64,000 bases of DNA from Flavobacteriaceae bacterium EG-1. GTDB lineage: Bacteria > Bacteroidota > Bacteroidia > Flavobacteriales > Flavobacteriaceae. A program made the translations under genes and the position numbers. The notes under the pieces were generated by a model. That model did no database searches. It was not told the origin of the DNA and saw only the letters and a list, made by a program, of their open reading frames with translations. Where the stretch lies: contig NZ_WJPK01000001.1 in NCBI RefSeq assembly GCF_009649685.1, forward strand, positions 314,760-378,759. Reading direction: 5' to 3'. Of the stretch, positions 449-36,295 are shown piece by piece; within the stretch, counting starts at the first letter, position 1, and every line of letters begins with the position of its first letter.

Positions 449-1564
449 CTATTCGAAATAATTTAAAGTTCGATAACCACCTACTTGCAGATATCGGTCT
501 TTTTTCATCAGCTTTATATCACTTTCCATCATATCAGCGACAAGGTCTTTTAACTCATATTCTGGCATCCATCCTAATTTATTGTTAGCTTTTGTTGCAT
601 CACCAATTAAAAGTTCAACTTCGGTTGGTCTAAAATATGCAGGATCAACTGCTAGGATTTCTTTACCAATTTCCAATTGGTATTCAGGATTATTACATGC
701 TTTCACATAGGCTTTTTCGTCAACCCCTTTTCCTTTGAACTCTAATTCAATACCAACTTCAGAAAAACTCATTCTAACAAAGTCACGTACAGGGGTAGTT
801 TTACCTGTGGCAATAACCCAATCTTCAGCTTCGTCTGCTTGTAAAATCATCCACATCATTCGCACATAGTCTTTCGCATGACCCCAATCTCGCTGTGCAT
901 CTAGATTACCTAAGAAAAATTTATCTTGTAGGCCAAGTGCAATTCGCGAAGTTGCTCTTGTGATTTTACGTGTAACAAAAGTTTCGCCACGTATTGGTGA
1001 TTCGTGATTAAAGAGAATGCCATTACAAGCATACATATTGTAAGCTTCACGATAGTTTACAGTTATCCAATAAGCATACATTTTAGCAACCGCGTATGGG
1101 CTTCTAGGGTAGAAAGGAGTGGTTTCACTTTGTGGCACCTCTTGAACTTTTCCATAAAGTTCAGATGTTGAAGCCTGGTATATTCTTGTTTTGTCAGTTA
1201 ATCCTAGTAAACGAACAGCGTCTAATATTCTTAAAGTGCCTAAACCATCTGCATTACCTGTATATTCAGGAATTTCAAAAGAAACGTGAACGTGGCTCAT
1301 AGCTGCCAAGTTGTAAATTTCGTCTGGTTGAATCTCCTTTATTAGACGAATTAGGTTGGTGCTATCTGTCATATCCCCATAATGCAATATAAAATTACGA
1401 TTTTCTATATGCGGATCTTGATATAGATGATCAATACGATCTGTATTAAATAAAGAAGACCTTCTTTTTAAGCCATGAACTTGGTAGCCTTTTTTTAATA
1501 AAAATTCGCTTAAATATGCTCCGTCTTGGCCCGTTACGCCAGTTATTAATGCGACTTTTTTCAT
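449..1564 (-). CDS. gmd: GDP-mannose 4,6-dehydratase
   Basis: Converts GDP-D-mannose to GDP-4-keto-6-deoxy-D-mannose, the substrate of the adjacent Fcl, so the pair supplies GDP-L-fucose. The 371-residue length is normal for the family. Visible landmarks are the N-terminal NADP-binding [16 protein letters not shown], the substrate-side [18 protein letters not shown], the catalytic region [14 protein letters not shown] with YxxxK in [12 protein letters not shown], and [16 protein letters not shown]. Expressed on the minus strand ahead of fcl with a 2-bp gap. Upstream lies about 160 bp without a gene and then the tail of a decayed glycosyltransferase, so this pair is probably transcribed separately from the murA-murB operon. 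Very secure call. Confidence 0.97.
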
Positions 1565-1728: not shown

Positions 1729-2908
1729 TTAATTATAACCTTTTATAATTGACTTGGAATGCTTGTAGCACCTTTTGAAATCTTTTATTATAAGCATTGG
1801 ATCAGAAAATTTTGAAGTTCTCTTATTTGCCGAATATAAAGCGGTCTCATAGACCGTTAGATATTTGTCATAAGCCTTTTTAATATTGAAAAATTCATCA
1901 AATAAATTTTTTAAATACTAGAAATTTGGTTGTAATATTCTTTTTCATTTATAACTTTTAAAACTAAATCTAGATTGTTTTCAAGGTCAAACTTGCTTGC
2001 CACATTTCGTTCAGAAAAATTGGTTGCAAAAAAATCTTGTAATTTATTCTCATTAACCAATAGAGGCATTTTCGATTTAGAAGCTGGAGTAAGTACCGAT
2101 AGGCCTAACGAAGAGGCTTCCATAATTCCTCAACCCGTAGCAATCACAGCATCTGAAAGGTACAACATTTTAGAAGCTTGCTTTGTTAGCTCGCTATTGG
2201 TTATAACGATAATATCTCGCCGTCTGCCAATTGCAGCCATTAATTAGTTATAAACTTCAGTATCTTGTACTGTGCCAATTAGATATAATTTTAGTTTTAT
2301 TCTGGTATGGTTTTTTAAATAATCTAAAAGTAAAATAGAGTCATTTATACTTTCTTTTTACATATGTTTTTCCAATACGAGCAATACGCATTAAGTTAAA
2401 TGTTCCTAAGTCTTTTTTATGTAATGAACTTTCAGATGTTATTATTGTACCTGCTCTATTTGGAATTAAAAAAATATTGGTTGCTTTGTATTTATTTCTT
2501 TTAGAAAACCATTCTTTATTTTCTTTACTAAACAAAACTAAATTATCAACTTTGGGAAAGTTTTTTGGATTTGGTCCTCCACATTTGTTTACTACAATTT
2601 TGATGTTATTTGATAAAAAAGGTCTAATTAAGTTGTATGAAGTACTGTCAAAAAAGTGAACTATGTCAGGCTTATAAGATTTTATAATTCTTGTTAGCTT
2701 GGTATTGAAGTTAACAATACTTATTCCATTAAAATTAAGACGTTCTAAGAAGTTTGGAATGCTTATTATCACCTCACTATTCCCTGGTCCAACAGTAATA
2801 ATTTTAGACGCTAACTTTACGGCAATTAACCTAGAGATATGATCTAAGGAATGAAAGTGGCCACCCTTTTCTAAGGCTCATTACAGAGTTTACAAATTAT
2901 ATTTTCAT
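1729..2908 (-). pseudogene. Decayed GT4-like glycosyltransferase, paralogue of the gene at 8287-9447
   Basis: Reading the minus strand through three frames reconstructs almost the whole intact protein encoded at 8287-9447. From ATG at 2908 the start MKI is followed at once by TAA. After a frameshift the matching text resumes (KGGHFHSLDHISR against KGGHYHSLNHISR), continues through KPDIVHFFDS and KCGGPNPKNFPKVDNLVLFS, then hits another stop after RKYK near 2341. The next part (LKLYLIGTVQD, ASKMLYLSDAVIATG) carries in-frame stops where the paralogue has coding residues. MEASSLGLSVLTPASKS to SSI ends at 1911, and a last frameshift gives FFNIKKAYDKY through to TAA at 1729. At least five lesions exclude sequencing error at one site. 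Its start overlaps the murB stop as ATGA, so it was once the last gene of the murA-acyltransferase-wzx-murB operon. Confidence 0.92.
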
Positions 2909-3762
2909 ATTATTCGTTGTTCAACTTCTAAATCAACACCGAAATAGTCCATCACTTTTGACTTGACGTCTCTTATTATTTGTAATATATCGTTCCCAGA
3001 TGCATTATTAAAATTTATAATAAAGCCTCCGTGCTTTTCTGATATTTTAGCTCCACCAACGGTGTAACCTTTTAAATTTAACTCATCTATAATGGCACCA
3101 ACATAATAGCCTTTAGGTCTTTTAAATACACTTCCAGCATTTGGAAAATCCTTAGGTTGTTTCGCCCAACGTTGTTCCTTAATTCTTTCCATTTTATTCT
3201 TTATTCCCTCTTTAGAACCTTTTTCTAAGTGTAACCATACTTTTAAAACTACCTTGTCTGTGTTTCTTTGAAAAAAGCTATTTCTATATTCAAAATCCAT
3301 ATCTTCTTTATGGATTTCTTTCACATTCATATCTATCAAATCTAAGTATCTAACTTTTACAAGTACATCTTTTATTTCTTCACCACTTGCTCCAGCATTC
3401 ATAACAACTGCACCGCCCAATGAACTTGGTATATCATAAAATATTTCAACACCTGATAATGAATTCGTCTGGGCAATTTCACTAATTTCTAACATAGTAA
3501 TACCTGCTTCCGCTTGAATATCACCGGTTTCTGAACTTATATTTATAGCATTGAAGTTGCCATTGAAAATAATAAATGTAGTGTCGTAAAATTCTTTAGA
3601 AAGGATAATATTGTGACCACTACCTAGAAGGGTAAAAGGTTTTTTTGTTTTGTAAAAATTAATTACATCTTCTTCATTTTCAGGAAAAAAAGCAGTTTTA
3701 CAGCTCGCTTTTATTTTGTACGAATTGTAATTTGTAAGATCAAAATTAGAATAGATTTTCAT
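2905..3762 (-). CDS. murB: MurB family UDP-N-acetylenolpyruvoylglucosamine reductase in EPS operon
   Basis: MurB uses FAD and NADPH to reduce the enolpyruvyl ether of UDP-GlcNAc to the lactyl ether, giving UDP-MurNAc. The 285-residue protein has the short type II layout: FAD-binding PFTLLGSGHNIILS, GVEIFYDIPSSLGGAVVMNAGASG, the YRNSFF motif, NAGSVFKRP containing the proton-donating Ser, GGAKISEKHGGFIIN, and the C-terminal Glu in LEVEQRII. All expected active-site residues are therefore present. It sits one base after wzx and in the same operon as a murA-like gene, inside an exopolysaccharide locus rather than a cell-wall cluster. I infer a role in making a lactyl-ether sugar for the polysaccharide, but a back-up cell-wall function cannot be excluded. 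Confidence 0.9.
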   Translation of the reverse strand: MKIYSNFDLTNYNSYKIKASCKTAFFPENEEDVINFYKTKKPFTLLGSGHNIILSKEFYDTTFIIFNGNFNAINISSETGDIQAEAGITMLEISEIAQTNSLSGVEIFYDIPSSLGGAVVMNAGASGEEIKDVLVKVRYLDLIDMNVKEIHKEDMDFEYRNSFFQRNTDKVVLKVWLHLEKGSKEGIKNKMERIKEQRWAKQPKDFPNAGSVFKRPKGYYVGAIIDELNLKGYTVGGAKISEKHGGFIINFNNASGNDILQIIRDVKSKVMDYFGVDLEVEQRII

Positions 3763-3763
3763 A

Positions 3764-5056
3764 TTAATTTTTAATTTTCTTTACCAATTGAATAAGTGGA
3801 TCAAAATCACTTTTTTTATAATGTAGGATTGTCTTTATTGGAATATCAACTTCTTTACTGTAAAAATGTAAAAACAATACTGCAGCAATACTGTAGCTTA
3901 CTGTTGAAGCAGCAGAAGCGCCATCGGCTCCATAGCTAGGAATCCAAGCATAGTTAAGTAATACGTTCACTATTAGGGCAGGTATCATCGCCTTTAGAGC
4001 CACCCATGGTTTTCCTTTACCTGCTAAATCCATATTCATAACTTTAAAAAATGTCAGCAATAAAACACCCGGTAATAAGATTTTTAAAACACTTGTGCTT
4101 CCTTTAAAAACTTCACCATACATAAGTAATATTATGATGTCAGAGATAATAAAAAGAATGAATGACCCCAAACCGATAGCCAAAATGGACAATCTTAACA
4201 GTTGTGCTATTTTTAAGGAAAATGTTCTTCCATTTTTAGAAACTGCACTCCGAGCAAAAACTATAGTACTCAATAACATAGGTATTTGCCATAGGTATTG
4301 TGTGATTGCTGCACCTTTTGAGTAAATTCCAGTTTCGTATGTTGCACTCATTAGATCCAGTAAAATAATGTCGATTTTGTAATTTAAATTAATAACCAAT
4401 AAAGAAAGGGCATAAATTACTCCTAGACTTAACATTTTCTTTATAACATTCCATTGAAAGGTGAAACTAAAGGCATTAATAAATTTGTTCTTGAAAAGCA
4501 GAACAATAGATATAAAAAGAGGTCCGCCAATCATTGCAATTAAATAGCCCGTGATATCAAGTGATAGCCAGACTACAAAAAACACCGTTAAAATCAATAG
4601 AATTAATGCCGGTATCCAGTTAATTTTATTAAATATGGATAATTGATTCTTCCCTAAAAATATACCGCTATTATAGGTGGCAAATAATGAAAATGGGATA
4701 GGAATTATTACCAAAATTACGTAGACAATATTAGACCCAGAACTACTTAAATAATATATTAGGCAAAAGCAAACAATAACACTTATAATAGAGGTTAAAA
4801 ACCAGATTTGGCTAATTGCTGTTTTAACAACATTTTCTGGATAGATTTCTTTTCCTAAAAAGTATGCAGTTGATTGTCTAATTCCTAAAGATCCAATACT
4901 CATAAATAAAGATGGGTAGACCATCAATGCGGCAATGATACCATTTTTATCTGGGCCAAGTGTTCTAGCAATTATTATAGACGTTGCTATTCCGAAAGCT
5001 ATTATGAGTATTTTTGAAGCGCCAACACCTAATAAATCGGAAAGAAATGATCTCAT
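3764..5056 (-). CDS. wzx: Wzx-type polysaccharide flippase
   Basis: A 430-residue integral membrane protein of the polysaccharide transporter (PST/MATE-like) superfamily, expected to flip lipid-linked repeat units across the inner membrane. The N-terminus MRSFLSDLLGVGASKILIIAFGIATSIIIARTLGPDKNGIIAAL is the classic Wzx start, with the ARxLGPxxxG signature after helix 1. About twelve hydrophobic segments alternate with short loops through the whole protein, including the conserved late region VLKILLPGVLLLTFFKVMNMDLAGKGKP. Its ATG overlaps the stop of the acyltransferase (ATGA, 5053-5056) and its stop is one base before murB, so the four genes are probably translationally coupled. It is the only flippase seen in the window. 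Confidence 0.93.
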   Translation of the reverse strand: MRSFLSDLLGVGASKILIIAFGIATSIIIARTLGPDKNGIIAALMVYPSLFMSIGSLGIRQSTAYFLGKEIYPENVVKTAISQIWFLTSIISVIVCFCLIYYLSSSGSNIVYVILVIIPIPFSLFATYNSGIFLGKNQLSIFNKINWIPALILLILTVFFVVWLSLDITGYLIAMIGGPLFISIVLLFKNKFINAFSFTFQWNVIKKMLSLGVIYALSLLVINLNYKIDIILLDLMSATYETGIYSKGAAITQYLWQIPMLLSTIVFARSAVSKNGRTFSLKIAQLLRLSILAIGLGSFILFIISDIIILLMYGEVFKGSTSVLKILLPGVLLLTFFKVMNMDLAGKGKPWVALKAMIPALIVNVLLNYAWIPSYGADGASAASTVSYSIAAVLFLHFYSKEVDIPIKTILHYKKSDFDPLIQLVKKIKN

Positions 5057-5592
5057 ATTTTAGGTTTAATAATTCTACATGGTATACCTACTGCTACTGA
5101 ATTAGTAGGGACATCAATATTTACCACAGCATTAGTTCCTACAATTGCGTTAGCTCCAATAGTAATTCCTCCAATAATTTTGGCACCAGCATACACTTTA
5201 ACACCATTTTCTAAAACTGGATATTTATTTCTTTGACCAGACTTGCCATGACTACCCAACGTAACTTGTTGAAAAATTGTTACATTATCTTTAATAACAA
5301 CTTTATCTCCAATCACTATTCCAATTGGATGGGGCATTGATAAATTTTCACCAATTGTTGAAGAATATGAAATATCACAATTTCTTTTGGAAACGAGTCG
5401 AGATTTGTAATAAGCAGCCAAATGTCGAAATAAAAAAAATCTACTTTTAGCTAAGTATTTACCAAGATGATGATTCAATAATATTCTAAATTGGGGGCTA
5501 TAGAAATAGTCTAAAAAGAAAGCCTTTAGGAAAAAATTATTTGGCCGAATTTCGTTCTTTATAATTATAAGAGTTTCTTTCAATCTTCTCAT
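5053..5592 (-). CDS. Hexapeptide-repeat acyltransferase, serine acetyltransferase-like
   Basis: A 179-residue left-handed beta-helix acyltransferase resembling CysE/EPS acetyltransferases. After an N-terminal helical part, the repeats run STIGENLSMPHPIGIVIGDKVVIKDNVTIFQQVTLG, with the His of MPHPIGIVIG typical of the SAT subgroup, then GVKVYAGAKIIGGITIGANAIVGTNAVVNIDVP and a terminal GIPCRIIKPK. It lacks the long N-terminal domain of true serine acetyltransferases. Being encoded between murA-like and wzx it most likely O- or N-acetylates a sugar of the repeat unit; it could also acetylate the 4-amino sugar made by the aminotransferase at 29.7 kb, as PglD does, but that is inference. Confidence 0.85.
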   Translation of the reverse strand: MRRLKETLIIIKNEIRPNNFFLKAFFLDYFYSPQFRILLNHHLGKYLAKSRFFLFRHLAAYYKSRLVSKRNCDISYSSTIGENLSMPHPIGIVIGDKVVIKDNVTIFQQVTLGSHGKSGQRNKYPVLENGVKVYAGAKIIGGITIGANAIVGTNAVVNIDVPTNSVAVGIPCRIIKPKI

Positions 5593-5598
5593 TAATGA

Positions 5599-6846
5599 CT
5601 ACTTAATAGTTACGCCTAAATTTTTCAATTTATTTTCTAAATATTCATACCCTCTATGAATTTGCCACGAATTTTCAATTATAGTTTCCCCTTCAGCAGT
5701 AAGTCCAGCAAGTAATAGTGCGATTCCAGCCCTAAGGTCTAAGGCATTTACTCTAGCTCCATTCAATCTGTTTCCTCCATTTATAACTAGCATATCACCA
5801 TCAACATGATAATCCACACCCATTTTAGAAAGCTCTTCTGCATAACCGTATCTTCCAGGGAATCGTAAATCAACAATTTTTGATATGCCATTTGACATAG
5901 CTCCATAAACTGCAAATAATGGCTGCATATCAGAATTAATACCAGGGTAAGGTCCTGTGCTTATTTCAATAGGATAAGCTTCGCCGCCTTTGACTATTAA
6001 ATTTGCCCCCCCCTTATAAAATTTCATGCCGCTCTCTCTTAGATAAACCAAAGGAACTTCTAAATGTTCAAAAGGGAAATTTTCAATTTCGATTTCACCA
6101 TTAGTAATAACAGCTCCAATTGCCCATGTTAAGGCTTCCATGTTATCAGGAATTACACTGTGTTTAACACCTTGTAATTCTTCAACACCTTCAACAACAA
6201 TACATTTTTGACCATAAACTTTAATCTTTGCCCCCATTTTGTTGAGCATATTTATTAAGTCAATTATTTCTGGACGAATATGGGGATTCCATATAGTTGA
6301 TTTGCCTTTTGCAATAGAGGCACAAATAATAGAGTTTTCTGTCGCACCTGTCGAACGCATTGGTAAATGAATATCAGCTCCAATTAGTCCATTATTTACT
6401 TCAGCACAAAGATAATCCCCTTCCTCCCATACTCTGGCGCCTAATTTTTCAAGCAGCATTACGTGCAAATCATATTTTCTTTCACCGAGTTTACAACCAC
6501 CAGGCAATGGTACTTTTCCAGAACCAAAACGTGCAGTTAGGGCTCCTAATATGAGTAAAGTATTTCTAATGGACCTTCCATCCCAATTTAAGGTCGAGAT
6601 ATTAGACTTTACTTCGTTAATTATTACAGTATCATCAGTTGAGGAATATTCTTTGCCAAGAACACTTAACATTTCTAAATGTACCTGAACATCTAGCAAG
6701 CCATTAGGGAAATTATTTAGTTCAATCGTTTCATTTGTTAATATTGAAGCCGCTAATAAACGAAGTGAACTATTTTTAGCACCGCTTACTTTTACTGTAC
6801 CATTTAATACTCCTTTTTGTATCGCAATTGTTTTGTTTTGATCCAT
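5599..6846 (-). CDS. murA: MurA-like UDP-GlcNAc 1-carboxyvinyltransferase in EPS operon
   Basis: A 415-residue member of the EPSP synthase/MurA family, which transfers the enolpyruvyl group of PEP to the 3-OH of UDP-GlcNAc. Catalytic landmarks are kept: GAKNSSLRLLAAS (Lys-Asn near residue 20), the Arg of SIRNTL, PGGCKLGERKYDLH (nucleophilic Cys near residue 118 with the downstream Arg), RSTGATEN, the Asp of YPGINSDMQ, and the Arg of DLRAGIALLLAGL. Elsewhere it departs from housekeeping MurA: the usual ENRF segment reads RFPGRYGYAEEL and the usual REPEI region reads NPHIRPEI. It is the first gene of the operon containing acyltransferase, wzx and murB, with 6 bp to the next gene. I infer it is a dedicated EPS enzyme whose acceptor may differ from plain UDP-GlcNAc. 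Confidence 0.88.
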   Translation of the reverse strand: MDQNKTIAIQKGVLNGTVKVSGAKNSSLRLLAASILTNETIELNNFPNGLLDVQVHLEMLSVLGKEYSSTDDTVIINEVKSNISTLNWDGRSIRNTLLILGALTARFGSGKVPLPGGCKLGERKYDLHVMLLEKLGARVWEEGDYLCAEVNNGLIGADIHLPMRSTGATENSIICASIAKGKSTIWNPHIRPEIIDLINMLNKMGAKIKVYGQKCIVVEGVEELQGVKHSVIPDNMEALTWAIGAVITNGEIEIENFPFEHLEVPLVYLRESGMKFYKGGANLIVKGGEAYPIEISTGPYPGINSDMQPLFAVYGAMSNGISKIVDLRFPGRYGYAEELSKMGVDYHVDGDMLVINGGNRLNGARVNALDLRAGIALLLAGLTAEGETIIENSWQIHRGYEYLENKLKNLGVTIK

Positions 6847-7030: not shown

Positions 7031-8161
7031 TTATTTGTTCGATGCTATAAAATTCAATATATCTTTAGCTCTTTTTGTGATATCAAATTTTTTAGCATTT
7101 TCAAGTGCATTTTGTGACATTTCTTCTATTTTATTAGCATCACTAATTATATTCGAAATTGCCGATTTAATTTGTTCAACATTAAGAGGGTCTACAAGCG
7201 TGGAGAATGAAGCGTTACATTGTACCTTTATTTCTGGAATATCTGAGGATACTATTGGTAAACCACAAGCCATTGCTTCTACAATGGCATTAGATGATCC
7301 TTCATGATGTGTTGGGAGAGCGAATAAATCAGCTGCTGCTAATAGTTCTGGCACTACATTTGAAGCGACTTTTTTCTCAAATACAATGTGTTCACTTATT
7401 AATTGTTGTTCTCCGCTACCGACCATAATTAAACCAATGTTCTCTAAGTCTTTTGTAGCCTCTAATAATTTAAGCGGTCCTTTAGTTGCTACAAATCGTC
7501 CAACGAAAATAATTAGTTTTTTATCTAGTGGTAATCCATGTTTTTTACGCATTTCGTTCTTGTCCTGTTTAAAAAAAACGCTAAAATCAACCCCATTAGG
7601 TTTCATTATTATTTTATTATTCGGCACACCTAATGAAACTAATTTGTCAACAATTTGTGGAGAAACTGCTACATATCCTTTTACGCGAGTCAGCATTTTA
7701 GAATAATAATTTTTGCTGTAATACGCTCTTCTTACATCAATATTATTGTATTCGCCAACCGCTGCAAAAACAGGTTTGTCATGTTTTGAGGTGGCTTGAA
7801 TAGCTATAAAAGTATTTGACAAAAAATGTGCATAAACAACATCAAATTCTAATTGATATTTTTTTATAGTTCGTTGTACAGCCCATACTTGCCCCTGTTC
7901 ACCAATGCGATACGTGTTATAACCAAATATATTTTTTGCAGATGCAGAAAAATATTGGGGGCGATATACGGTTGCTAATTCTTGACCATATGATTTTCTT
8001 ATATTCTTGGATGATTTTCTCTTTATAATTCCTTCTGGAGATATTACGTGCACTTCATTCCCAAATTTCACAAATTGCTGAACAAGTTTATAAACAAAAA
8101 CTCCTCTTGAAGGGCTCGATTCTGACGGATAATTATTTGAAATTACTAATATTTTCATCAA
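7031..8161 (-). CDS. Glycosyltransferase family 4 (GT-B fold)
   Basis: A 376-residue retaining-type GT4 enzyme predicted to add one sugar to the lipid-linked repeat unit on the cytoplasmic face. The N-terminal acceptor domain opens MMKILVISNNYPSESSPSRGVFV, the hinge precedes IIMKPNGVDFSVF, and the donor domain has KKLIIFVGRFVATKGPLKLLEA and the E-x7-E nucleotide-sugar motif in HHEGSSNAIVEAMACGLP. The first Met is followed directly by a second, so the start may be 3 bp later. Upstream 125 bp separate it from the next glycosyltransferase on the same strand; downstream 184 bp without a gene separate it from murA-like. Sugar specificity cannot be read from sequence. Confidence 0.92.
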   Translation of the reverse strand: MMKILVISNNYPSESSPSRGVFVYKLVQQFVKFGNEVHVISPEGIIKRKSSKNIRKSYGQELATVYRPQYFSASAKNIFGYNTYRIGEQGQVWAVQRTIKKYQLEFDVVYAHFLSNTFIAIQATSKHDKPVFAAVGEYNNIDVRRAYYSKNYYSKMLTRVKGYVAVSPQIVDKLVSLGVPNNKIIMKPNGVDFSVFFKQDKNEMRKKHGLPLDKKLIIFVGRFVATKGPLKLLEATKDLENIGLIMVGSGEQQLISEHIVFEKKVASNVVPELLAAADLFALPTHHEGSSNAIVEAMACGLPIVSSDIPEIKVQCNASFSTLVDPLNVEQIKSAISNIISDANKIEEMSQNALENAKKFDITKRAKDILNFIASNK

Positions 8162-8286: not shown

Positions 8287-9447
8287 TTAATTTTTTTTTC
8301 TGCTTAAATTAAAATAATACATTGTTCTTATTTTTAGGTAAATATCTGAGGTTTTTGAAACACTATAGTTGTTCTTAAGTGCTAACTGGTACATTTTATT
8401 ATATTTTTTAGTAGCCCCCTTAATATCAAATTCTTCTTCAAATAATTTTAAAGAAAAATTTGATAAATTTTTATAATAATCCTTGTCGACTAATAATTTA
8501 TTTATGTTTTCAATATTAGCTTTGATGTCTTTTTCACTGGCAATATTGCGCTCTGAAAAATTTGTAGCAAAAAAATTGTCGTAATTACTTGCCTTGAGCA
8601 AGATTGGAATATTAGAGTTTTTTGCCGGTGTTAATACAGGAAGTCCTAAAGATGCAGCTTCCATAACACCTCTTCCTGTTGCAATTACGGCATCTGCTAA
8701 ATACAACATTTTAGAAGCTTCTTTTGTATAGGTGTCATCAGTAAGTAATGTTATTTTTGTGTCTTTACCTATAAGAGTTAAAAGATTTTCATAAGCTAAA
8801 TTATCTTGTATTGTACCTATTATGTAAAGACTTAATTTTGAATTTTTCTTAGTATTTAATATTTTAAATAGATTAACGGTTTGTTCAATGCTTTTATAAT
8901 GAAAATTACTTATACGGGCAATCCGTACAAAGCAAAAAGCATTTTTATTTTTTTTAACTAATGGTTCTGAGGTTACACCGATTTTTGAAACTCGGTTGGG
9001 TATTAATCGTGTTATGGTATTTTTAAACTTGGGGTTTGATTCAAACCATTTTTGGTTTTCTCTACTAAATAAAACTAAGTTTTCAACTTTTGGATGTTTA
9101 TAGGGGTTTGGTCCTCCACACAAATTAGTAACAAATGAGTACTTTTTATTTGAAACTAATACCTTTGTAATGTTGTAAGCGTTATAATCAAAAAAATGGA
9201 TTATGTCAGGTTTAAAACCTGATAAAAGGCTATTCAAGCTTTTATAGAGGCTAAAAATATTTAACCCATCAAAATGTAGGTTACTTAGGAAATAAGGGTT
9301 GTTGGATATAATATGGCTTTCTACTCTACCTATTGTTATCAAGCCAACTGTTTGTTTTTTGGCGACTTCTCTGGAAATATGATTTAAGGAATGATAATGG
9401 CCGCCTTTGCCTTGTTTTAATACTGAAATAACATATAATATTTTCAT
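8287..9447 (-). CDS. Glycosyltransferase, GT4-like; intact paralogue of the pseudogene at 1729-2908
   Basis: A 386-residue GT-B type glycosyltransferase. The N-terminus MKILYVISVLKQGKGGHYHSLNHI and NLCGGPNPYKHPKVENLVLFS are shared with the decayed copy 6 kb away. The donor-binding domain contains KLSLYIIGTIQDN and ADAVIATGRGVMEAASLGLPVL, in which the second Glu of the GT4 E-x7-E motif is kept but the first is replaced, as in some divergent GT4 subgroups. Transcribed toward the GT at 7031 and preceded by 266 bp of AT-rich DNA after the polymerase gene. Because the paralogue is dead, this copy is probably the one used for the present polysaccharide structure. Acceptor and donor unknown. Confidence 0.87.
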   Translation of the reverse strand: MKILYVISVLKQGKGGHYHSLNHISREVAKKQTVGLITIGRVESHIISNNPYFLSNLHFDGLNIFSLYKSLNSLLSGFKPDIIHFFDYNAYNITKVLVSNKKYSFVTNLCGGPNPYKHPKVENLVLFSRENQKWFESNPKFKNTITRLIPNRVSKIGVTSEPLVKKNKNAFCFVRIARISNFHYKSIEQTVNLFKILNTKKNSKLSLYIIGTIQDNLAYENLLTLIGKDTKITLLTDDTYTKEASKMLYLADAVIATGRGVMEAASLGLPVLTPAKNSNIPILLKASNYDNFFATNFSERNIASEKDIKANIENINKLLVDKDYYKNLSNFSLKLFEEEFDIKGATKKYNKMYQLALKNNYSVSKTSDIYLKIRTMYYFNLSRKKN

Positions 9448-9713: not shown

Positions 9714-10928
9714 TCAATTATTTTTTTTATCAAGTATATGAACGTGGTTATTTGTTATATATTTTGTAGAGAAAGTTGAGCCTATTAAAATAGCGAAGAA
9801 AAACCAAAAGAAAATTTTGCCAATCGCACCTCCCGATTTTGCCATATTAAATAAAACAATTACATACATTACCAAATAAACAATCTCATTATTTATTTTA
9901 AAGTTTTTGTATAAATTTCGAGCCAATGCTAAAATGAACATAAGAAAAAATATTAAGCCTATTATTCCGGTTGTCATTAAAATATATAAAAAAACATTAT
10001 GTGGGTACATCATTCGTCCAGTATAATGAAACATTTCAGGTACAGCTCCAGCTATTCCAACTCCAAAAACTGGATTATCTTGAATGATTAGCCAAGCTGT
10101 ACTCCACAATTCTTCTCTCCCTGTATCTCCCTTATCAATTGTTCGTTCAATTCTATTACTAAAATCTGGATTTACGCTCATGATATAGTTGAATAAAAAA
10201 ACAGAAAAAACTATTCCACCAATAGCAAAAGTTGCTTTTCTCCATATTGAAGTTTTCATATAAAAAATTAAACAAGCTATACCTAAAAAAACGGAAGCCA
10301 AAGCACCTCTAGAACCAGTCATCATAATTAGGTTTAACATTATTAAGGCGAAAACAATGTTTAAAATAAATTTTTTCAATGTAAATTTATTATTAATCAA
10401 CCTTGCAGTAATTATTAAAAATGCTAAAACTACTTTAACTCCCAGACCATTTGGGTTTTCACCGAAAAGCTTAAGACGACCTCCTACAAATTCAGTCCCT
10501 ACTCCTAAAAGTACTAGTGGATAAAGAAGTATAATACTAGCAATATATACACTTAATACTTTAGAAATTAATTTTGGATCATTATATAATTGATTAGCAA
10601 TTAAAATCATTAAAATAACAAGTGTTAAAAATCTTTGATTATAAGTGTTTTGTATTGTTTCTGCATAAATATTATTTATCGCTGTAGAAAGTATACCTGC
10701 CAATGTTAGAAGTAGTAATGGTATTATATACTTTTTTAAAGGTTTTAAGTGAAAATTACTCTTTAATAATGGCAGCCAAGTAAGAATATATAAAATACTG
10801 CCCATATATGTAATTGAAATTATTCCGCCTAAATTAAAGGGGTTCCAATTTTCAAAAGTCACTGTAAATACTAAAACGTATAAACTTATTTTATTTACTT
10901 TTTCTAATTTTTCCATAAACGATAACAA
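9714..10928 (-). CDS. wzy: O-antigen polymerase/ligase family protein (Wzy)
   Basis: A 404-residue polytopic membrane protein with ten or more hydrophobic segments and the O-antigen ligase/polymerase (Wzy_C) signature: TGSRGALASVFLGIACLIF, a long periplasmic loop with NPVFGVGIAGAVPEMFHYTGRMMYPHNVFLYILMTTGIIGLIF including the conserved P-H-N. It would polymerise flipped repeat units in the periplasm, working with the Wzx at 3764-5056 and the Wzc chain-length kinase at 33622-35991. It is the only polymerase-like gene seen. First gene of the leftward block, with a 458-bp gap to the divergent glycosyltransferase; a ligase role is less likely in this context. Confidence 0.88.
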   Translation of the reverse strand: MLSFMEKLEKVNKISLYVLVFTVTFENWNPFNLGGIISITYMGSILYILTWLPLLKSNFHLKPLKKYIIPLLLLTLAGILSTAINNIYAETIQNTYNQRFLTLVILMILIANQLYNDPKLISKVLSVYIASIILLYPLVLLGVGTEFVGGRLKLFGENPNGLGVKVVLAFLIITARLINNKFTLKKFILNIVFALIMLNLIMMTGSRGALASVFLGIACLIFYMKTSIWRKATFAIGGIVFSVFLFNYIMSVNPDFSNRIERTIDKGDTGREELWSTAWLIIQDNPVFGVGIAGAVPEMFHYTGRMMYPHNVFLYILMTTGIIGLIFFLMFILALARNLYKNFKINNEIVYLVMYVIVLFNMAKSGGAIGKIFFWFFFAILIGSTFSTKYITNNHVHILDKKNN

Positions 10929-16735: not shown

Positions 16736-19612
16736 TTAACGGGGATATACAGCTTTACCGTCTGATAAAATTTTAGCATTTAGGGCTGCTATTCCTAAAA
16801 CTTGTGAACCAAAGTAATTTAAATGCGGGTTGGATTGATAGTCATTTTTAATTCTGTTTTGTAAACTTTGATTATAACGAGCTAGGTAGAACCATTCGTG
16901 CAATCTTCCTTTTGATGCGTACCCCCCTGTAGCATCAATATTTTCGGTTATTTTTTCGGCACCTACCCAAATAACATTTACAGTTTTAATTAATGCGTTT
17001 AGGTCAGACTGTTTCCAATACATGCCATTTTCCTTCGCTAAAACCATAAAACTAATAATTACTCCTGCGTGCGAGGTGTCTTGTATGTTTGATCCTTTGC
17101 GTACTCCCCATGTTTGATCCCATGCGTAAGCCGAAGAGTTTTTAGGATTGTCATAAATTTGATCTCTAAGGTTTGACGGTTCGCCGTACATAGTACCATA
17201 AGAAATGTTTTCAAAAACTTCTTTATATTTATTTTTTTTGGTGATTACATAAAGTTCCATTCCTATTCGAGCCCAATGTGAGGCCATATGAGTTCTTGAA
17301 CGATAAAATTGATTAATTCCTGAAGATTCATATCTATCCCAAATATTTTTTTCCGAAAATTCCAAAAGCTTATTATACTGATTTTTATATTTCGAAGAAT
17401 TCTTAATACTTGAAGTTTGAGATATAACTCTAAGTAAAGTGGCAACATGTCTCCAATAATATGAGTCCCATAAGTTATATTTATTTCCATCGCTTGCAGG
17501 CCAACCTAAATAACCACCTCCAACAGATTTTGCGTCATCAACAGTATTGTTTATAAGTTCTAAGGCGGTATCTAAGTAACCATTATCTCCTGTTGCCTGC
17601 CACATGGATGATAATCCATCTATATATAAACCAAGATAATAATACTCTTGATTTCGTCCGCGACTATTAGACATCGAATAAGCTTCTGAACGATCTTTCG
17701 ACCATTGCGAATCGAATTGACCTTGCCAGTACCTTACATCAGCATTTGAAGTTGGCGTAACCAGCTCTTCTTCTTCCACAGTAATGGTTATATAATCGGA
17801 GTCCGTTAATCCTTCGGCATCCTTTACGGTTAATTTAACTTTATACGTTCCGGTTTGACTAAAAGTTTGTATGGGGTTATCGTCCGTTGAGCTTCCATTA
17901 CCATCAAAATCCCAAATATATTGCGTAATTTCTTTATCATCGGTTGATTTATTTGCGGAGAATTCAACTTTCAATGGTGCCTCACCTTTTGTAGTATTTG
18001 CTGTAGCATCTGCATTAGGTTTTTCATTAGCAGGTTCTTTTACCTCAATACTAATAGTTGCTGTATCACTTAATCCTTCATCATCTGTGACTGTAAGCTC
18101 TACTTCGTAAGTGCCAGCTTCATCAAAAGTATGCGTAGGACTAATTGAACTTGATTTACCATCTTTAAAGTCCCACAAATATGTTTTTATTTCATTGTCA
18201 TCGCTGGAATTTTTAGCACTAAATTTGACTTTTAAAGGGACTTCACCAGAAGTTGTATCCGCTGTTAATTTTGCAGTTGGACCTTCATTTTCCGGCTCTT
18301 CTGCTCTAATTGTTACTGTCTTTGTATTTGTTAGACCTTCATCATCTGTAACAATTAACTCAACTTTATAGGTGCCAGCTTTGGTAAATGTATGACTTGG
18401 ATTTTCTGTATTATCTTTTTCACTACCATCTTTAAAATCCCATAAATAACTTTTGATTTCAATATCATCACTAGATTTTTCACCATTAAATGTAATTTTA
18501 AGTGGAATTGTTCCTTCGGTTTTATTAGCTGAAGCAATTGCAACAGGGGCTTCGTTTTCATGTTCACCAACAACAATGGTAATAGTGTTGGAATTGGAAA
18601 GTTCATTTTCGTCCGTAGCTTTTACCTCAACTTTAAAAATACCCTTTTCGTCGAAGATATGTGTTGGGCTTTTTGAATCTGAAGAAGACCCATCTTTAAA
18701 ATCCCATTGGTACGATACAATTTCTGCATTCTCACTGGAAGCTTCAGCGTTAAATGTTACTTCTAAGGGAGCCTCACCTTTAGTAATATCCGATGACGCC
18801 TCTACGTTCAAAGTTATTTCTTCTTCTTCTTCTTCTTCTTCTTCTTCTTCGGAAACTATATTTTCTTCCAATATATATTCTTCTATACTCTCAGCATCTA
18901 TAGCAGTTTCATATGTAATAATTAATTTAGGAGCCTCTTCTGTGGCATGCTCTTTTGAAGCGATTGCTACGTCATCGCCATTAGCTTGTTCCAAAATTAT
19001 TGTAGTATTTTCTGGTAAAATTTCAGAGGCCAATAATTCAACGGATTCTGTTTTTTCTAACTCATATGTTTTGTCTATCGAACCTAAAACTATATTAGCT
19101 TCTGGCGCTGTATCTTCATTTAAATCATCTTCATGCCATTTTAATGTAGATCCTTTATGGATATTTATTTCACCATCACCATCATCTTTATATATGGTAA
19201 ATTGAAATTCCACATTAACTATCGCGCCACCTATGCTATCAATTGGACTCAAATCAAAAAGTAGGTAACTTTTTCTGCTATTTGTTTGTAATCTAATAAC
19301 TTCATGATTAACACCTTCACCATCATGTATATAGGCATCTTGTATTGGAAAAAAAGTAGTTGTGCGACTTTCCAAATATAATTGAGGTTCTTCTTCTTCA
19401 ATCTCAGAAATGTCTTCTGTTTCAGTATCTTCAATAATATTATCTTCAGATTCAGATTCTCGAGAATTACGGTCTTCAATTGATTGTGAAGCCTCATTTA
19501 GAATACTGTCACTTAATATATCACTATCCTTGCCGCAAGAGAGCACCAGAATAAATGAAAAAAGAATAAAACATAAAAATTTAATGTTTAGACGTGTGGG
19601 ATGAAAAGTCAT
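16736..19612 (-). CDS. Multidomain lipoprotein: DNRLRE/CBM96-like, four PKD domains, enzyme-like C-terminal domain
   Basis: A 958-residue surface or periplasmic lipoprotein. The signal peptide ends in the lipobox VLSC with Cys26. Residues about 83-235 resemble the DNRLRE/CBM96 domain (FPIQDAYIHDGEGVNHEVIR, LLFDLS). A run of eleven Glu (255-265) leads to four PKD domains (about 267-617), each with the YxWDFKDG or WDFDGNG core and a TVTDDEGL-type end. Residues about 625-958 match the C-terminus of the neighbour at 20054, sharing GGGYLGWPASDG, YNLWDSYYWR, RTHMASHWARIGMELY, AYAWDQTWG and GRLHEWFYLARYNQ. I cannot assign this last domain to a known family; its aromatic, His and Tyr-rich helical pattern suggests a polysaccharide lyase or hydrolase. 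In an EPS locus it may trim or release the polymer. Confidence 0.85.
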   Translation of the reverse strand: MTFHPTRLNIKFLCFILFSFILVLSCGKDSDILSDSILNEASQSIEDRNSRESESEDNIIEDTETEDISEIEEEEPQLYLESRTTTFFPIQDAYIHDGEGVNHEVIRLQTNSRKSYLLFDLSPIDSIGGAIVNVEFQFTIYKDDGDGEINIHKGSTLKWHEDDLNEDTAPEANIVLGSIDKTYELEKTESVELLASEILPENTTIILEQANGDDVAIASKEHATEEAPKLIITYETAIDAESIEEYILEENIVSEEEEEEEEEEEITLNVEASSDITKGEAPLEVTFNAEASSENAEIVSYQWDFKDGSSSDSKSPTHIFDEKGIFKVEVKATDENELSNSNTITIVVGEHENEAPVAIASANKTEGTIPLKITFNGEKSSDDIEIKSYLWDFKDGSEKDNTENPSHTFTKAGTYKVELIVTDDEGLTNTKTVTIRAEEPENEGPTAKLTADTTSGEVPLKVKFSAKNSSDDNEIKTYLWDFKDGKSSSISPTHTFDEAGTYEVELTVTDDEGLSDTATISIEVKEPANEKPNADATANTTKGEAPLKVEFSANKSTDDKEITQYIWDFDGNGSSTDDNPIQTFSQTGTYKVKLTVKDAEGLTDSDYITITVEEEELVTPTSNADVRYWQGQFDSQWSKDRSEAYSMSNSRGRNQEYYYLGLYIDGLSSMWQATGDNGYLDTALELINNTVDDAKSVGGGYLGWPASDGNKYNLWDSYYWRHVATLLRVISQTSSIKNSSKYKNQYNKLLEFSEKNIWDRYESSGINQFYRSRTHMASHWARIGMELYVITKKNKYKEVFENISYGTMYGEPSNLRDQIYDNPKNSSAYAWDQTWGVRKGSNIQDTSHAGVIISFMVLAKENGMYWKQSDLNALIKTVNVIWVGAEKITENIDATGGYASKGRLHEWFYLARYNQSLQNRIKNDYQSNPHLNYFGSQVLGIAALNAKILSDGKAVYPR
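18818..18850 (-). repeat. (TTC)11 microsatellite coding for eleven Glu
   Basis: Eleven perfect TTC triplets on the plus strand read as eleven GAA codons in the lipoprotein at 16736-19612, forming the hinge between the carbohydrate-binding-like domain and the PKD array. Replication slippage here changes linker length by whole codons without breaking the frame. Confidence 0.95.
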
Positions 19613-20053: not shown

Positions 20054-21493
20054 CTAGTTCTCTGGATAATACGGACTGCCATCTACAAGGATTTTTGCAT
20101 TTAGAGCAGCAATGCCTATGACTTGAGTGCCATAATATTCAAGATGATTGCCGATGTAATCTTTTTTTAGTCTATTTTGTAATTCTTGATTAAATCTACC
20201 TAAATAAAACCATTCATGTAATCGTCCTTGATTATGATAAAAGCCTCCGGTACCATCAACGTTCGTATGCATTTCTTTAGGTGTTGAATTAGGCCATACA
20301 ATATCTAATGTTTTAATAAATGAATTAATATCTTTCTCGGTCCAATACATATTATTTTCGTAAGCCAGAACCCAAAAACTTATTATTGCCCCTGCATGGT
20401 TAGTATCTTGTATCTCTGAGCCGTTAATTGACCCCCAATGTGAATCCCAAGCATAAGCTGTTGAATTTTTAGGATTTTCATATAATTGTTCTTTCAAGTT
20501 TGAAGTTCTACCTGGCATTTCACCAAAAGATATATTGTCAAAAACTTCTTTATATTTTTCATTACCGGTGACTATATACAATTCCATACCAATTCTGGCC
20601 CAATGGGATGCCATATGCGTTCGTGACCTGTATATTGAACTATTTCCATAAGAAAAGTATCTATTCCATATATTTTTCTCTGAAAAGTCTAAAATTCTTT
20701 CATAATTTTCCTGATATCCAGAAGCTCTAAGGTTTGGTGATTGATATAATTTACGAATTAATGTAGCTACTTGACGCCAGTAATATGCATCCCATAGATT
20801 ATATTCAACACCATCATGTGCAGGCCATCCTAGGTAACCGTTCCCCACTGAAACCGCATCATCCATTGTATTGTTTATAAGTGTTAATGCATCATTTAAA
20901 TAAGAACTGTCACCAGTAGCTTGCCATGTTGATGTTAAACCATCAATATAATAAGCTAAGAAATAGTATTCTTGATTTTTATTAGCACTTTTTGATTTAG
21001 AAATTGCATCAGCAAAGTCACTTTTTTTCCATTTATCATCAAATAATCGTTGCCAATATTTCACCTCATCATTTATTTTTGTCACTGCAACCTTAGTATC
21101 TGTAGTGGTATTTGAACCGTCTTCTTGAGATGTTTGGGTTGTATAGGTGAAATTATCCGTCGTATCTTCTGAATTATTAGAATTAGGAACGTATGTAAGG
21201 GTATTGTCTTCATTAATTTGTATTACTCCATTCTCTGGTTGGGAAGTGGTTAAAATTTCAACATTTTCTTCGTCTGCAATAACATCATTAGAAAGTACAT
21301 CAAGTATAATTGCATCATTACCATTTATGACATAATTATCTTCAATAAAAACACTACTAATTAGATTAGCTTCTAAATTGTCGACCGCTACATATTCAGA
21401 TAGCAAATCACTATCCTTACTGCAAGAAAACAAGGAGAGAATAAATACATAAATTATCATGAATTGATAGTTTTTTAAGCGAAGATAGGTCAT
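20054..21493 (-). CDS. Lipoprotein with cadherin-like domain and the same enzyme-like C-terminal domain
   Basis: About 479 residues from the preferred Met at 21493 (MTYLRLKNYQFMIIYVFILS), which gives a normal lipoprotein signal ending SLFSC with Cys24; an upstream Met at 21529 would give an overlong leader. Residues about 45-140 form a cadherin/VCBS-like tandem domain with DVLSND, NGVIQINEDNTLTYVP and DNFTYTTQ. Residues about 145-479 are closely similar to the last third of the protein at 16736 (WQATGDSSYLNDAL, NGYLGWPAHDG, RTHMASHWARIGMELY, GRLHEWFYLGRFNQ, IGIAALNAKILVDG). The two genes are tandem duplicates with different N-terminal accessory domains. Probably exported to the outer membrane and acting on the locus's own polysaccharide; the reaction is unknown. 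Confidence 0.85.
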   Translation of the reverse strand: MTYLRLKNYQFMIIYVFILSLFSCSKDSDLLSEYVAVDNLEANLISSVFIEDNYVINGNDAIILDVLSNDVIADEENVEILTTSQPENGVIQINEDNTLTYVPNSNNSEDTTDNFTYTTQTSQEDGSNTTTDTKVAVTKINDEVKYWQRLFDDKWKKSDFADAISKSKSANKNQEYYFLAYYIDGLTSTWQATGDSSYLNDALTLINNTMDDAVSVGNGYLGWPAHDGVEYNLWDAYYWRQVATLIRKLYQSPNLRASGYQENYERILDFSEKNIWNRYFSYGNSSIYRSRTHMASHWARIGMELYIVTGNEKYKEVFDNISFGEMPGRTSNLKEQLYENPKNSTAYAWDSHWGSINGSEIQDTNHAGAIISFWVLAYENNMYWTEKDINSFIKTLDIVWPNSTPKEMHTNVDGTGGFYHNQGRLHEWFYLGRFNQELQNRLKKDYIGNHLEYYGTQVIGIAALNAKILVDGSPYYPEN

Positions 21494-21529
21494 AAGTAGG
21501 TTACATTTTGAATCTGATTTGGGAATCAA

Positions 21530-24442: not shown

Positions 24443-25723
24443 TTAAAGTCTTCCATCTATTTTACACTTTAATATGCCTTTTACATCGTATAAAACGCCA
24501 TTATCCGTAAGCATATTTCTTAGGTCTAATTCTAAATATTCGTTATGGGCAACAGTTAATACAATCGCATCAAATTTATTATTTGGAAGCGTGTTGGTGG
24601 TCTCTAAGCTGTATTCATGCCCTACTTCCTCCGGTGATGCCCAAGGGTCATAAATGGTAATATCGCTATCGTAACTTTTAAGATTTGCGATTACATCTAC
24701 AGCTTTAGTATTTCTAACATCAGGACAATTCTCCTTAAAAGTAATTCCTAAAACTAGTATTTTAGCACCTTTTACTTTTATATCTCTTTGCAGCATTAGT
24801 TTCACTACTTCAGATGACACGTATTTACCCATGCCGTCATTCATTCTTCTACCAGCAAGTATAATCTCTGGATGGTAGCCATACTCCTGCGCACGTTGCG
24901 CCAAATAGTAGGGGTCAACACCAATACAGTGACCACCCACTAAACCGGGTTTAAATGGTAAAAAATTCCATTTTGTTCCCGCCGCTTCTAGTACTGCATG
25001 CGTATCTATATTCATTAAATTGAAAATCTTGGCTAATTCGTTTACGAAAGCAATATTTATATCGCGCTGCGAATTTTCAATAACTTTTGCTGCTTCAGCG
25101 ACTTTAATAGTTGGTGCTAAATGCGTTCCAGCAGTAATTACTGAGGCATACAAAGCATCAACTTTCTTTCCAATTTCTGGAGTAGAACCTGAAGTTACCT
25201 TTAAAATCTTTTCAACAGTATGTTCTTTGTCACCCGGGTTTATTCGCTCTGGTGAATACCCAACAAAGAAGTCAATATTAAATTTTAAATCACTAACTTT
25301 TTCTAAAACAGGAACACATTCATCTTCTGTAACACCTGGGTACACTGTTGATTCGTACACAACAACATCACCTTTCTTTAAAACCTTACCAACTGTTTCA
25401 CTAGATTTATACAATGGAGTTAAAACTGGTCTATTGGTGCTATCTACTGGGGTAGGGACCGTAACAATATAATAATTGCAATCAGCAATAGTATCAATTT
25501 TATTGGTGCAATAAAGTCCTTTGTCAAAATTAGGCGTGATTTGGAGAACCTCTTGTAATACATCATCAGAAACTTCGAGTGTACTATCCTTGCCTGCTTG
25601 TAATTCTTTAATTCTACTCTCATTGATATCGAACCCGATAACTGGATATTTTGTTGCAAATAGTCGCGCTAATGGCAATCCTACATATCCAAGACCTATG
25701 ATAGCTATTTTTGGTGTCATCAT
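24443..25723 (-). CDS. tviB: UDP-N-acetylglucosaminuronate/galactosaminuronate-type nucleotide sugar dehydrogenase
   Basis: A 426-residue UDP-sugar 6-dehydrogenase of the TviB/VipA/WbpA type: it oxidises C6 of a UDP-HexNAc to the carboxylate in two NAD-dependent steps. Seen are the Rossmann GLGYVGLPLARLFATKYPVIGFDIN, the TVPTPVDSTNRPVLTPL segment, ESTVYPGVTEDECVPVLE, the catalytic Cys in GLVGGHCIGVDPYYLAQRAQ, and GITFKENCPDVRNTK in the C-terminal domain. It is 3 bp downstream of the WbpP/TviC-like epimerase, the combination that gives UDP-GalNAcA in the Vi antigen pathway. Convergent with the AlgJ-like gene (29-bp gap). Confidence 0.93.
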   Translation of the reverse strand: MMTPKIAIIGLGYVGLPLARLFATKYPVIGFDINESRIKELQAGKDSTLEVSDDVLQEVLQITPNFDKGLYCTNKIDTIADCNYYIVTVPTPVDSTNRPVLTPLYKSSETVGKVLKKGDVVVYESTVYPGVTEDECVPVLEKVSDLKFNIDFFVGYSPERINPGDKEHTVEKILKVTSGSTPEIGKKVDALYASVITAGTHLAPTIKVAEAAKVIENSQRDINIAFVNELAKIFNLMNIDTHAVLEAAGTKWNFLPFKPGLVGGHCIGVDPYYLAQRAQEYGYHPEIILAGRRMNDGMGKYVSSEVVKLMLQRDIKVKGAKILVLGITFKENCPDVRNTKAVDVIANLKSYDSDITIYDPWASPEEVGHEYSLETTNTLPNNKFDAIVLTVAHNEYLELDLRNMLTDNGVLYDVKGILKCKIDGRL

Positions 25724-25726
25724 TAA

Positions 25727-26731
25727 TTAATTTAATTTTAGATTATTCCAATACCAGTGTACAGCCTCTTTTAGACCTTTTTTGATATCAAATTCAGGTT
25801 GATAGTTTAATAATTGTTTTGCTTTGTCTATTGAAGCCAATGAATGCGGCACATCACCTTGTCGTTCTGGTCCATAAATAATTGCTACATCGTTTATTTT
25901 GGTGTCAAATTCCGCCAAGAAAGATTTTAATAACCCTACGAGCTCCTTTAAATTGGTTCGTTCACCATAGGCCACATTATAAACGGTGTTAATTGCCTTA
26001 ATATTGTCTGAAAGTAAGGCTCGAACATTCATTTGTATTACATTGTCGATATATGTAAAATCTCTTGAGAAACTACCATCACCATTAATAGTTGGTGATT
26101 GGTGTTGCAGTAATTGTATAACAAATTTTGGTATTACGGCAGCATAGGCTCCATTAGGGTCCTGTCTTCTGCCAAATACATTAAAGTAGCGCAGGCCTAT
26201 TGTTTCAAGTCCATACGTTTTGGCAAACACGTCGGCGTACAATTCATTTACGTATTTCGTAATTGCATAGGGGGAAAGAGGTTTTCCTATAACATCTTCC
26301 ACTTTAGGCATGGATGTTGAATCCCCATAAGTTGAAGAACTTGCAGCATATACAAATCGTTTAACTTTGGCGTCCCTAGCAGCTACTAACATATTAAGAA
26401 AACCAGATACATTAACATCATTACTTGTTATTGGGTCGTTTATAGATCTTGGCACAGAACCTAAGGCAGCCTGGTGCAAAATATAGTCGATTCCACTACA
26501 TGCACTGTGGCAGGTTGCCAATTCTCGAATATCCCCTTCAATTAAAGTGTAATTCGGATTTGTTAAGAACGGAGTAATATTTTCTTTTTTTCCTGTAGCA
26601 TAATTATCTAAACATACTACTTTATTGCCGTTTTTGAGTAGTGCTTCCGTGAGGTTAGTCCCGATAAAGCCGGCACCACCCGTTACAAGAACTTTAAAGT
26701 TAGAATTGAAATTTAAGTTTTTTAAATCCAT
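25727..26731 (-). CDS. wbpP: UDP-N-acetylglucosamine (uronate) 4-epimerase, WbpP/TviC-like
   Basis: A 334-residue extended short-chain dehydrogenase. VLVTGGAGFIGTNLTEALL binds NAD; LHQAALGSVPRSINDP is the hallmark of the WbpP/TviC subgroup; YAASSSTYGDS with SPYAITKYVNELY supplies Ser and YxxxK; LRYFNVFGRRQDPNGAYAAVIPKF is also characteristic. It interconverts UDP-GlcNAc(A) and UDP-GalNAc(A). Together with the dehydrogenase 3 bp downstream it should yield UDP-GalNAcA for the polysaccharide. Order relative to oxidation (before or after epimerisation) cannot be told from sequence. A 129-bp gap separates it from the next upstream gene. Confidence 0.93.
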   Translation of the reverse strand: MDLKNLNFNSNFKVLVTGGAGFIGTNLTEALLKNGNKVVCLDNYATGKKENITPFLTNPNYTLIEGDIRELATCHSACSGIDYILHQAALGSVPRSINDPITSNDVNVSGFLNMLVAARDAKVKRFVYAASSSTYGDSTSMPKVEDVIGKPLSPYAITKYVNELYADVFAKTYGLETIGLRYFNVFGRRQDPNGAYAAVIPKFVIQLLQHQSPTINGDGSFSRDFTYIDNVIQMNVRALLSDNIKAINTVYNVAYGERTNLKELVGLLKSFLAEFDTKINDVAIIYGPERQGDVPHSLASIDKAKQLLNYQPEFDIKKGLKEAVHWYWNNLKLN

Positions 26732-26860
26732 AGAATTGTCAATGTATAGCTGTGTTTTTTTTATAATTTACTTGGTTTTTAATCAAGAATTATAATTGAT
26801 GTTTTGTTAAATCTATTTTTTTTGATGGTAAGCTAAAGAATTTTGGTGTTGCTGTTTTAA

Positions 26861-36224: not shown

Positions 36225-36232
36225 TATCTTTG
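36225..36232 (+). promoter_or_regulatory. Candidate -7 box TATCTTTG for the first giant gene
   Basis: Exact match to the Bacteroidota consensus TAnnTTTG, downstream of the wzc terminator. No clear TTG lies 17-23 bp upstream, which lowers confidence. If used, transcription would begin near 36239, which argues against the in-frame TTG at 36230 as start codon. Confidence 0.5.
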
Positions 36233-36295
36233 TACGTCATTGATTTTTATATGTACCTGTACAGTTTAAGGAAGTTATTAAACACTATGTTGATT

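Follow-up and report, generated by a model that had tools for sequence, protein, structure and literature searches.

A MurA/MurB pair in a flavobacterial exopolysaccharide locus and the lactyl-ether sugar it may supply

It has been clear for decades that some surface polysaccharides contain lactyl-ether sugars, and the lactic-acid group of the cell-wall sugar is normally put in place by MurA and MurB. What, then, does a murA/murB pair do inside a locus for exopolysaccharide (EPS)? The question is raised by a 64,000-nucleotide stretch of the genome of Flavobacteriaceae bacterium EG-1 (contig NZ_WJPK01000001.1, positions 314,760 to 378,759; the whole stretch is called the window here), in which the two genes flank an acyltransferase gene and a wzx flippase gene. 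Judging from the sequences, we consider it probable, at about three chances in four, that these four genes travel horizontally as an EPS module whose product is a nucleotide sugar with a (1-carboxyethyl), i.e. lactyl-ether, group, destined for the repeat unit of the EPS.

The pair and its housekeeping counterparts

The four genes form one compact minus-strand unit, encoding an enolpyruvyl transferase of the MurA type (5599-6846, 415 amino acids), a hexapeptide acyltransferase resembling EpsC and CysE (5053-5592, 179 amino acids), a Wzx-type flippase (3764-5056, 430 amino acids) and a type II MurB reductase (2905-3762, 285 amino acids). murA is separated from the acyltransferase gene by 6 bp and wzx from murB by 1 bp, while the acyltransferase gene and wzx overlap by 4 bp (ATGA). 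Both this arrangement, re-read from the open reading frames, and the four gene identities, checked by NCBIfam and Pfam family scans, agree with what an earlier note on this DNA had described. The MurA exceeds the cut-offs of NF006873 (1e-121, score 406 against 297) and of TIGR01072, and the MurB those of NF010480 (263 bits against 259) and TIGR00179 (215 bits against 144.5). The flippase matches PF01943 and PF13440 and is 59-73% identical to the wzx products in the cassettes of other loci. For the acyltransferase, which matches PF00132, the best NCBIfam model is the EpsC model NF041874, below its cut-off; the idea of a CysE-like serine enzyme was dropped, and we claim only an acyltransferase, which probably O-acetylates the sugar or the repeat unit. 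Members of its family recur in many of the cassette loci.

The earlier note had conceded that these might simply be the housekeeping genes. This possibility is rejected, since the genome (4.45 Mb, 99.94% complete) contains, besides aroA, a second murA (C1:440826-442079, 436 amino acids) and a second murB (C1:1838956-1839942, 338 amino acids, type I-like), and the EPS and housekeeping copies fall into separate clades in trees. The EPS and housekeeping MurAs of this genome share only 31-33% identity, and all 11 genomes with related loci carry a housekeeping set together with an EPS set. The two kinds of MurA also differ at the fosfomycin target: Cys115 is kept in all EPS MurAs, whereas Asp replaces it in 12 of the 12 Bacteroidota housekeeping MurAs examined (L005:1483-2793 and those of 11 other genomes). 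The EPS murA is thus not a fosfomycin-resistance copy.

Related loci, clades and conserved residues

A contig scan with the window MurB yielded ten further Bacteroidota loci besides that of G112, and MurA searches added alphaproteobacterial plasmids, Flavobacteriaceae genomes (including that of Aurantibacter crassamenti) and five genomes from the family of an Alteromonadaceae metagenome-assembled genome. Matches on Paenibacillus and Bacillus plasmids were dismissed as ordinary cell-wall clusters. In 20 loci the distance between murA and murB is at most 2.6 kb; the two share a strand in 19 of them and are separated by wzx, acyltransferase or sulfotransferase genes, in L104 also by one gene without a Pfam match. 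The tie to polysaccharide genes proposed in the earlier note therefore extends well beyond the window: wzx, acyltransferase and glycosyltransferase genes recur beside the pair in many EPS loci. In most, murB is directly followed by a glycosyltransferase gene, either GT4-type (family F4) or of the GT2 family (F7), the latter in Algoriphagus, Lunatibacter, Sphingobacterium, Qingshengfaniella and R. gallicum alike; the Qingshengfaniella plasmid has a compact acyltransferase-murA-murB-GT2 set with no larger EPS cluster around it. The sulfotransferase genes between murA and murB are found at L012:6524-7414 and L018:9114-9977, and the polymer of these two strains may be sulfated as well.

Since the two genes are close together in 20 loci and, in comparison with A. 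crassamenti of the same genus, show ratios of nonsynonymous to synonymous substitutions (dN/dS) of about 0.05 (range 0.05-0.08 for murA, wzx and murB, averaged over both lineages and with dS near saturation), their arrangement goes beyond chance. By this measure, murA and murB are under purifying selection.

The 24 EPS MurAs form one clade (support 100/100), apart from the Bacteroidota housekeeping MurA and from the MurAs of other phyla, in a tree that has long branches and in which the bootstrap had not fully settled. Its members come from Bacteroidota, Alphaproteobacteria and an Alteromonadaceae-type family. A clade of EPS copies had been anticipated and was found; the expectation that it would belong to Flavobacteriaceae did not hold, as it spans Bacteroidota and Proteobacteria and occurs only sporadically, in 6 of 400 Flavobacteriaceae genomes and in 5 of 399 genomes of the Alteromonadaceae-type family. 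Such patchiness is as expected for horizontal spread.

The EPS MurBs, by contrast with the single MurA clade, fall into two groups, one mostly from Bacteroidota (14 sequences) and one proteobacterial (7), both outside the type I-like MurBs that serve as housekeeping copies in these genomes; the EPS MurBs were not recovered as one clade, and such a clade is disfavoured by the tree test (p-AU 0.028). On this phylogeny, MurB has joined the same MurA clade in two separate lineages. A MurB encoded on a plasmid of Burkholderia cenocepacia J2315 (L078:7142-8855), beside a carbamoyltransferase and a NUDIX gene and without murA, clusters, though weakly and on a long branch, with the EPS MurBs of Bacteroidota.

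The catalytic residues that the earlier note had read from the two window proteins were found in place by alignment, and they are kept throughout. All 24 EPS MurAs retain K22, N23, R91, C115, R120, D305, R331, R371 and R397, a set that includes the residues for phosphoenolpyruvate (PEP) binding and catalysis (in window numbering, K24, N25, C118, R123, D306, R332, R372 and R398 are among those kept), and 21 of 21 EPS MurBs retain Tyr187, Arg188, Ser238 and Glu308, in S. aureus numbering as counted along the 1hsk chain.

Which sugar might receive the lactyl group

The other side of the MurA active site looks different. In the main EPS group, A92N, V161R, V163T, E188R, P303N, T304S and I327R are present in 21 of 21 sequences and R232N in 20, and I327R extends to all 24 EPS MurAs (position 327 was placed with H. 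influenzae MurA as anchor); in the window protein the corresponding residues are N95, R164, T166, R191, N304, S305, R328 and N235. The main EPS group thus lacks the canonical acceptor-site residues (A92, E188, R232, P303, T304 and I/V327). Housekeeping MurA of Bacteroidota also deviates here (G92, M232, M327) but retains E188. The altered positions line, or are next to, the UDP-N-acetylglucosamine (UDP-GlcNAc) site of known MurA. A docking paper, which lends weak support, lists Glu188, Arg232, Pro303 and Val327 among the MurA ligand contacts. Because the PEP-binding and catalytic residues are kept and the changed positions are at the UDP-GlcNAc site, the changes are, as the alignment places them, on the acceptor side and not on the PEP side, and it is this combination, with changes fixed in the main group and, for I327R, in all 24 sequences, that is new here. 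Since the acceptor-site residues have changed, UDP-GlcNAc may not be the acceptor; this is a hint at another sugar, not proof of one. A second EPS MurA subfamily (L008, L016 and L019), 38-40% identical to the window MurA and encoded directly beside murB, has further acceptor-site changes (T162, I163, Y328) and may use yet another sugar.

The earlier note had the pair supplying the polymer with a lactyl sugar in the form of UDP-N-acetylmuramic acid (UDP-MurNAc). The lactyl ether remains our best reading; the identity of the sugar does not stand as it was, given the altered acceptor side of MurA and the uronate genes that flank several copies. UDP-MurNAc is a possible product and no longer the default, and a UDP-sugar other than UDP-GlcNAc, e.g. 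a UDP-hexuronate, seems at least as likely an acceptor. Published polymers include both products in question, MurNAc and 3-O-lactyl-glucuronic acid (3-O-lactyl-GlcA).

In one special case of the lactyl-ether module, which we entertain seriously while leaning against it, the product would be ordinary UDP-MurNAc, formed by the pair from UDP-GlcNAc in isolation from peptidoglycan synthesis, and MurNAc would enter the EPS. The enzymes do fall in the MurA and MurB families, and MurNAc is found in the capsule of Vibrio vulnificus ATCC 27562, the lipooligosaccharide of Psychrobacter arcticus and the O-antigens of Yersinia ruckeri O1 and Proteus penneri (PMC7247339, PMC4515632); relatives lacking an extra murB could, moreover, use their housekeeping MurB if the intermediate were the usual one. 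Yet the acceptor-side changes are clade-wide, and with a housekeeping UDP-MurNAc pool already at hand, one would have to explain why a second pair should make the same compound. In those glycans the lactyl ether of GlcNAc is part of a surface glycan, whereas the candidate product here is predicted from genes; the papers that describe them tie no gene cluster to the sugar, and the open-access literature that we searched yielded no genes for lactyl-ether sugars.

A second special case, possible though on the unlikely side, has a UDP-hexuronate (UDP-GlcA, UDP-galacturonate or a UDP-N-acetylhexosaminuronate, UDP-HexNAcA) as the acceptor; the product would then be a lactyl-uronic acid with two acidic groups, like the 3-O-lactyl-GlcA found in Alteromonas EPS. 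The new arginines at 188 and 327, together with the loss of E188 and R232, speak for it, as does the gene neighbourhood: in L011, L117 and L118 murA is preceded, immediately or almost so, by genes of the TviB/TviC-like or UDP-glucose dehydrogenase/epimerase kind, and several other loci have them in its vicinity. The window holds both kinds, all on the minus strand (24443-29271). A TviB-like UDP-HexNAc 6-dehydrogenase (24443-25723) and a TviC-like epimerase (25727-26731), whose best NCBIfam models (NF011729/NF011728) are below cut-off, possibly supply UDP-HexNAcA as the acceptor, and a GalE/RmlB-like epimerase (26861-27877), of a type that NCBIfam did not resolve, with a UDP-glucose 6-dehydrogenase-like gene (27874-29271; TIGR03026 above cut-off, best equivalog TuaD below) possibly supplies a UDP-hexuronate. 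3-O-(1-carboxyethyl)-D-GlcA has been reported from the EPS of Alteromonas HYD657 and Alteromonas 1644 (PMC2901825), marine polymers linked to our MurA clade through the Alteromonadaceae-type genomes that contain it, some with uronate genes beside it; the link is one of family, not of those strains' genomes. Uronate genes are, however, common in EPS loci, so that this neighbourhood is only suggestive, and several cassette loci have none within 20 kb. Taken further, and with the same reserve, a horizontally spread MurA subfamily that has come to use an acceptor other than one based on GlcNAc, with a UDP-hexuronate as the most plausible choice, might with separately recruited MurBs make diacidic lactyl-uronic acids for the EPS of Bacteroidota, Alphaproteobacteria and Alteromonadaceae-type bacteria, and might be the missing genetic basis of the 3-O-lactyl-glucuronate of deep-sea Alteromonas.

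A proposed route from nucleotide sugar to polymer

Whatever the acceptor, we infer the reactions, their order and the product from the sequences as follows: MurA would transfer enolpyruvate from PEP to a hydroxyl of the UDP-sugar, MurB would reduce the resulting enolpyruvyl ether to the lactyl ether, a glycosyltransferase would attach the lactyl sugar to the repeat unit carried on undecaprenyl, O-acetylation of the sugar may be the task of the acyltransferase, and Wzx would flip the repeat unit. A pair dedicated to EPS is supported by the second, housekeeping copies, the single MurA clade, the linkage in 20 loci, the kept catalytic residues, the two MurB lineages, purifying selection and the lactyl-ether sugars known from EPS, capsule and lipopolysaccharide.

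Several observations weigh against such a dedicated module. The window MurA barely exceeds the TIGR01072 cut-off (393.8 against 392.7 bits); murA and murB stand apart in one genome, that of Pleomorphovibrio (L015, L105); three genomes (G770, G619 and G568) carry murA-acyltransferase-wzx-glycosyltransferase and no murB anywhere beyond the housekeeping one; and the glycosyltransferase gene just downstream of murB in the window (about 2868-1753, minus strand) has decayed.

For the three genomes without an extra murB there are two possibilities: that the housekeeping MurB steps in, or that the polymer bears an enolpyruvyl ether. The latter, in which the EPS would in some strains keep the enolpyruvyl (1-carboxyvinyl) ether and MurB would be an optional second step, seems improbable to us, as most loci have a dedicated murB, MurB appears to have joined the clade in two lineages, and the housekeeping enzyme could act in just these three genomes.

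The decayed gene, of the GT4-type family F4, raises the slimmer prospect that the module is decaying in the window genome and that the polymer no longer carries the lactyl sugar. It aligns by tblastn in three pieces (53-66% identity) with the gene that is intact in A. crassamenti, and contains two frame changes and two in-frame stops; the longest piece is 64% identical to that gene, which occupies the same place. murA, the acyltransferase gene, wzx and murB are intact, though, with the low dN/dS given above as an average over both lineages, and the locus retains an intact F4 paralogue (8287-9447, minus strand), which is probably the glycosyltransferase of our scheme. It is 47% identical to the A. 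crassamenti cassette enzyme and has a predicted GT-B, GT4-like fold (mean pLDDT 82; structure matches include BshA and HepE). Given this fold and its 63-64% identity to the cassette glycosyltransferases of G770 and G619, the paralogue is a candidate for taking over lactyl-sugar transfer and may do the cassette enzyme's job. That the pair merely happens to be located in an EPS locus and serves peptidoglycan synthesis as a spare or stress copy is very unlikely, for although it matches the same MurA and MurB models, it recurs beside wzx and glycosyltransferase genes in three taxa, forms a separate clade with an altered acceptor site and, with Cys115 in place of the housekeeping Asp, does not fit a fosfomycin-resistance copy.

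The lactyl-ether module would operate within a locus that has the components of a Wzx/Wzy-dependent EPS system, namely the flippase, a Wzy-type polymerase (9714-10928, minus strand; PF04932), glycosyltransferases and, at L009:8484-9086 in the same genome, a member of the priming transferase family, whose A. crassamenti homologue matches PF02397. Upstream of murA lies a TuaC-like GT4 glycosyltransferase gene (7031-8161, minus strand; 79% identity in A. crassamenti, at the same position), and the same locus encodes a GDP-mannose 4,6-dehydratase (Gmd; 449-1564, minus strand; TIGR01472 above cut-off). Two related secreted proteins with PKD/Ig-like domains and, in common, a C-terminal domain that matches no Pfam family (16736-19612 and 20054-21529, minus strand) have homologues adjoining the EPS cassette in G770, G619 and G568 as well, and may act on the polymer. 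Directly after polysaccharide export-like genes follow two very large, related, repeat-rich proteins of 2245 and 2460 amino acids (36230-42967 and 43267-50649, plus strand). An ATP-grasp/HAD pair near the locus, which a few relatives share with the window genome, was considered as a ligase that would couple an amino acid to the carboxyl of the lactyl group, by analogy with the MurNAc-serine of V. vulnificus, and set aside as it is absent from most cassette loci.

The nearest known systems are the peptidoglycan enzymes themselves. By sequence, the EPS MurA shares with MurA the fold family (EPSP synthase superfamily) and the catalytic set; it differs in its separate clade, its changes at 92, 161, 163, 188, 232, 303, 304 and 327, and its location in EPS loci, where it does not replace the housekeeping copy. 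The EPS MurB resembles type II MurB. A MurA-like enolpyruvyl transferase outside peptidoglycan synthesis is also exemplified by NikO (PDB 4fqd), which belongs to the nucleoside antibiotic pathway of nikkomycin biosynthesis; as a distant match (1e-30), it is far further from the EPS MurA than true MurAs are.

Annotation labels these EPS genes plain murA and murB, which should serve as a warning. The clade signature, in the window WNPHIRPE, PGINSDMQ and VDLRFPGRY, together with the cassette, allows the link from gene to polymer to be tested wherever a strain has both a genome sequence and a solved EPS structure, and because the Bacteroidota housekeeping MurA has Asp at the drug site where the EPS MurA has Cys, fosfomycin given to cultures might block the EPS step selectively. 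If our reading is true, peptidoglycan enzymes have been recruited to the making of another polymer.

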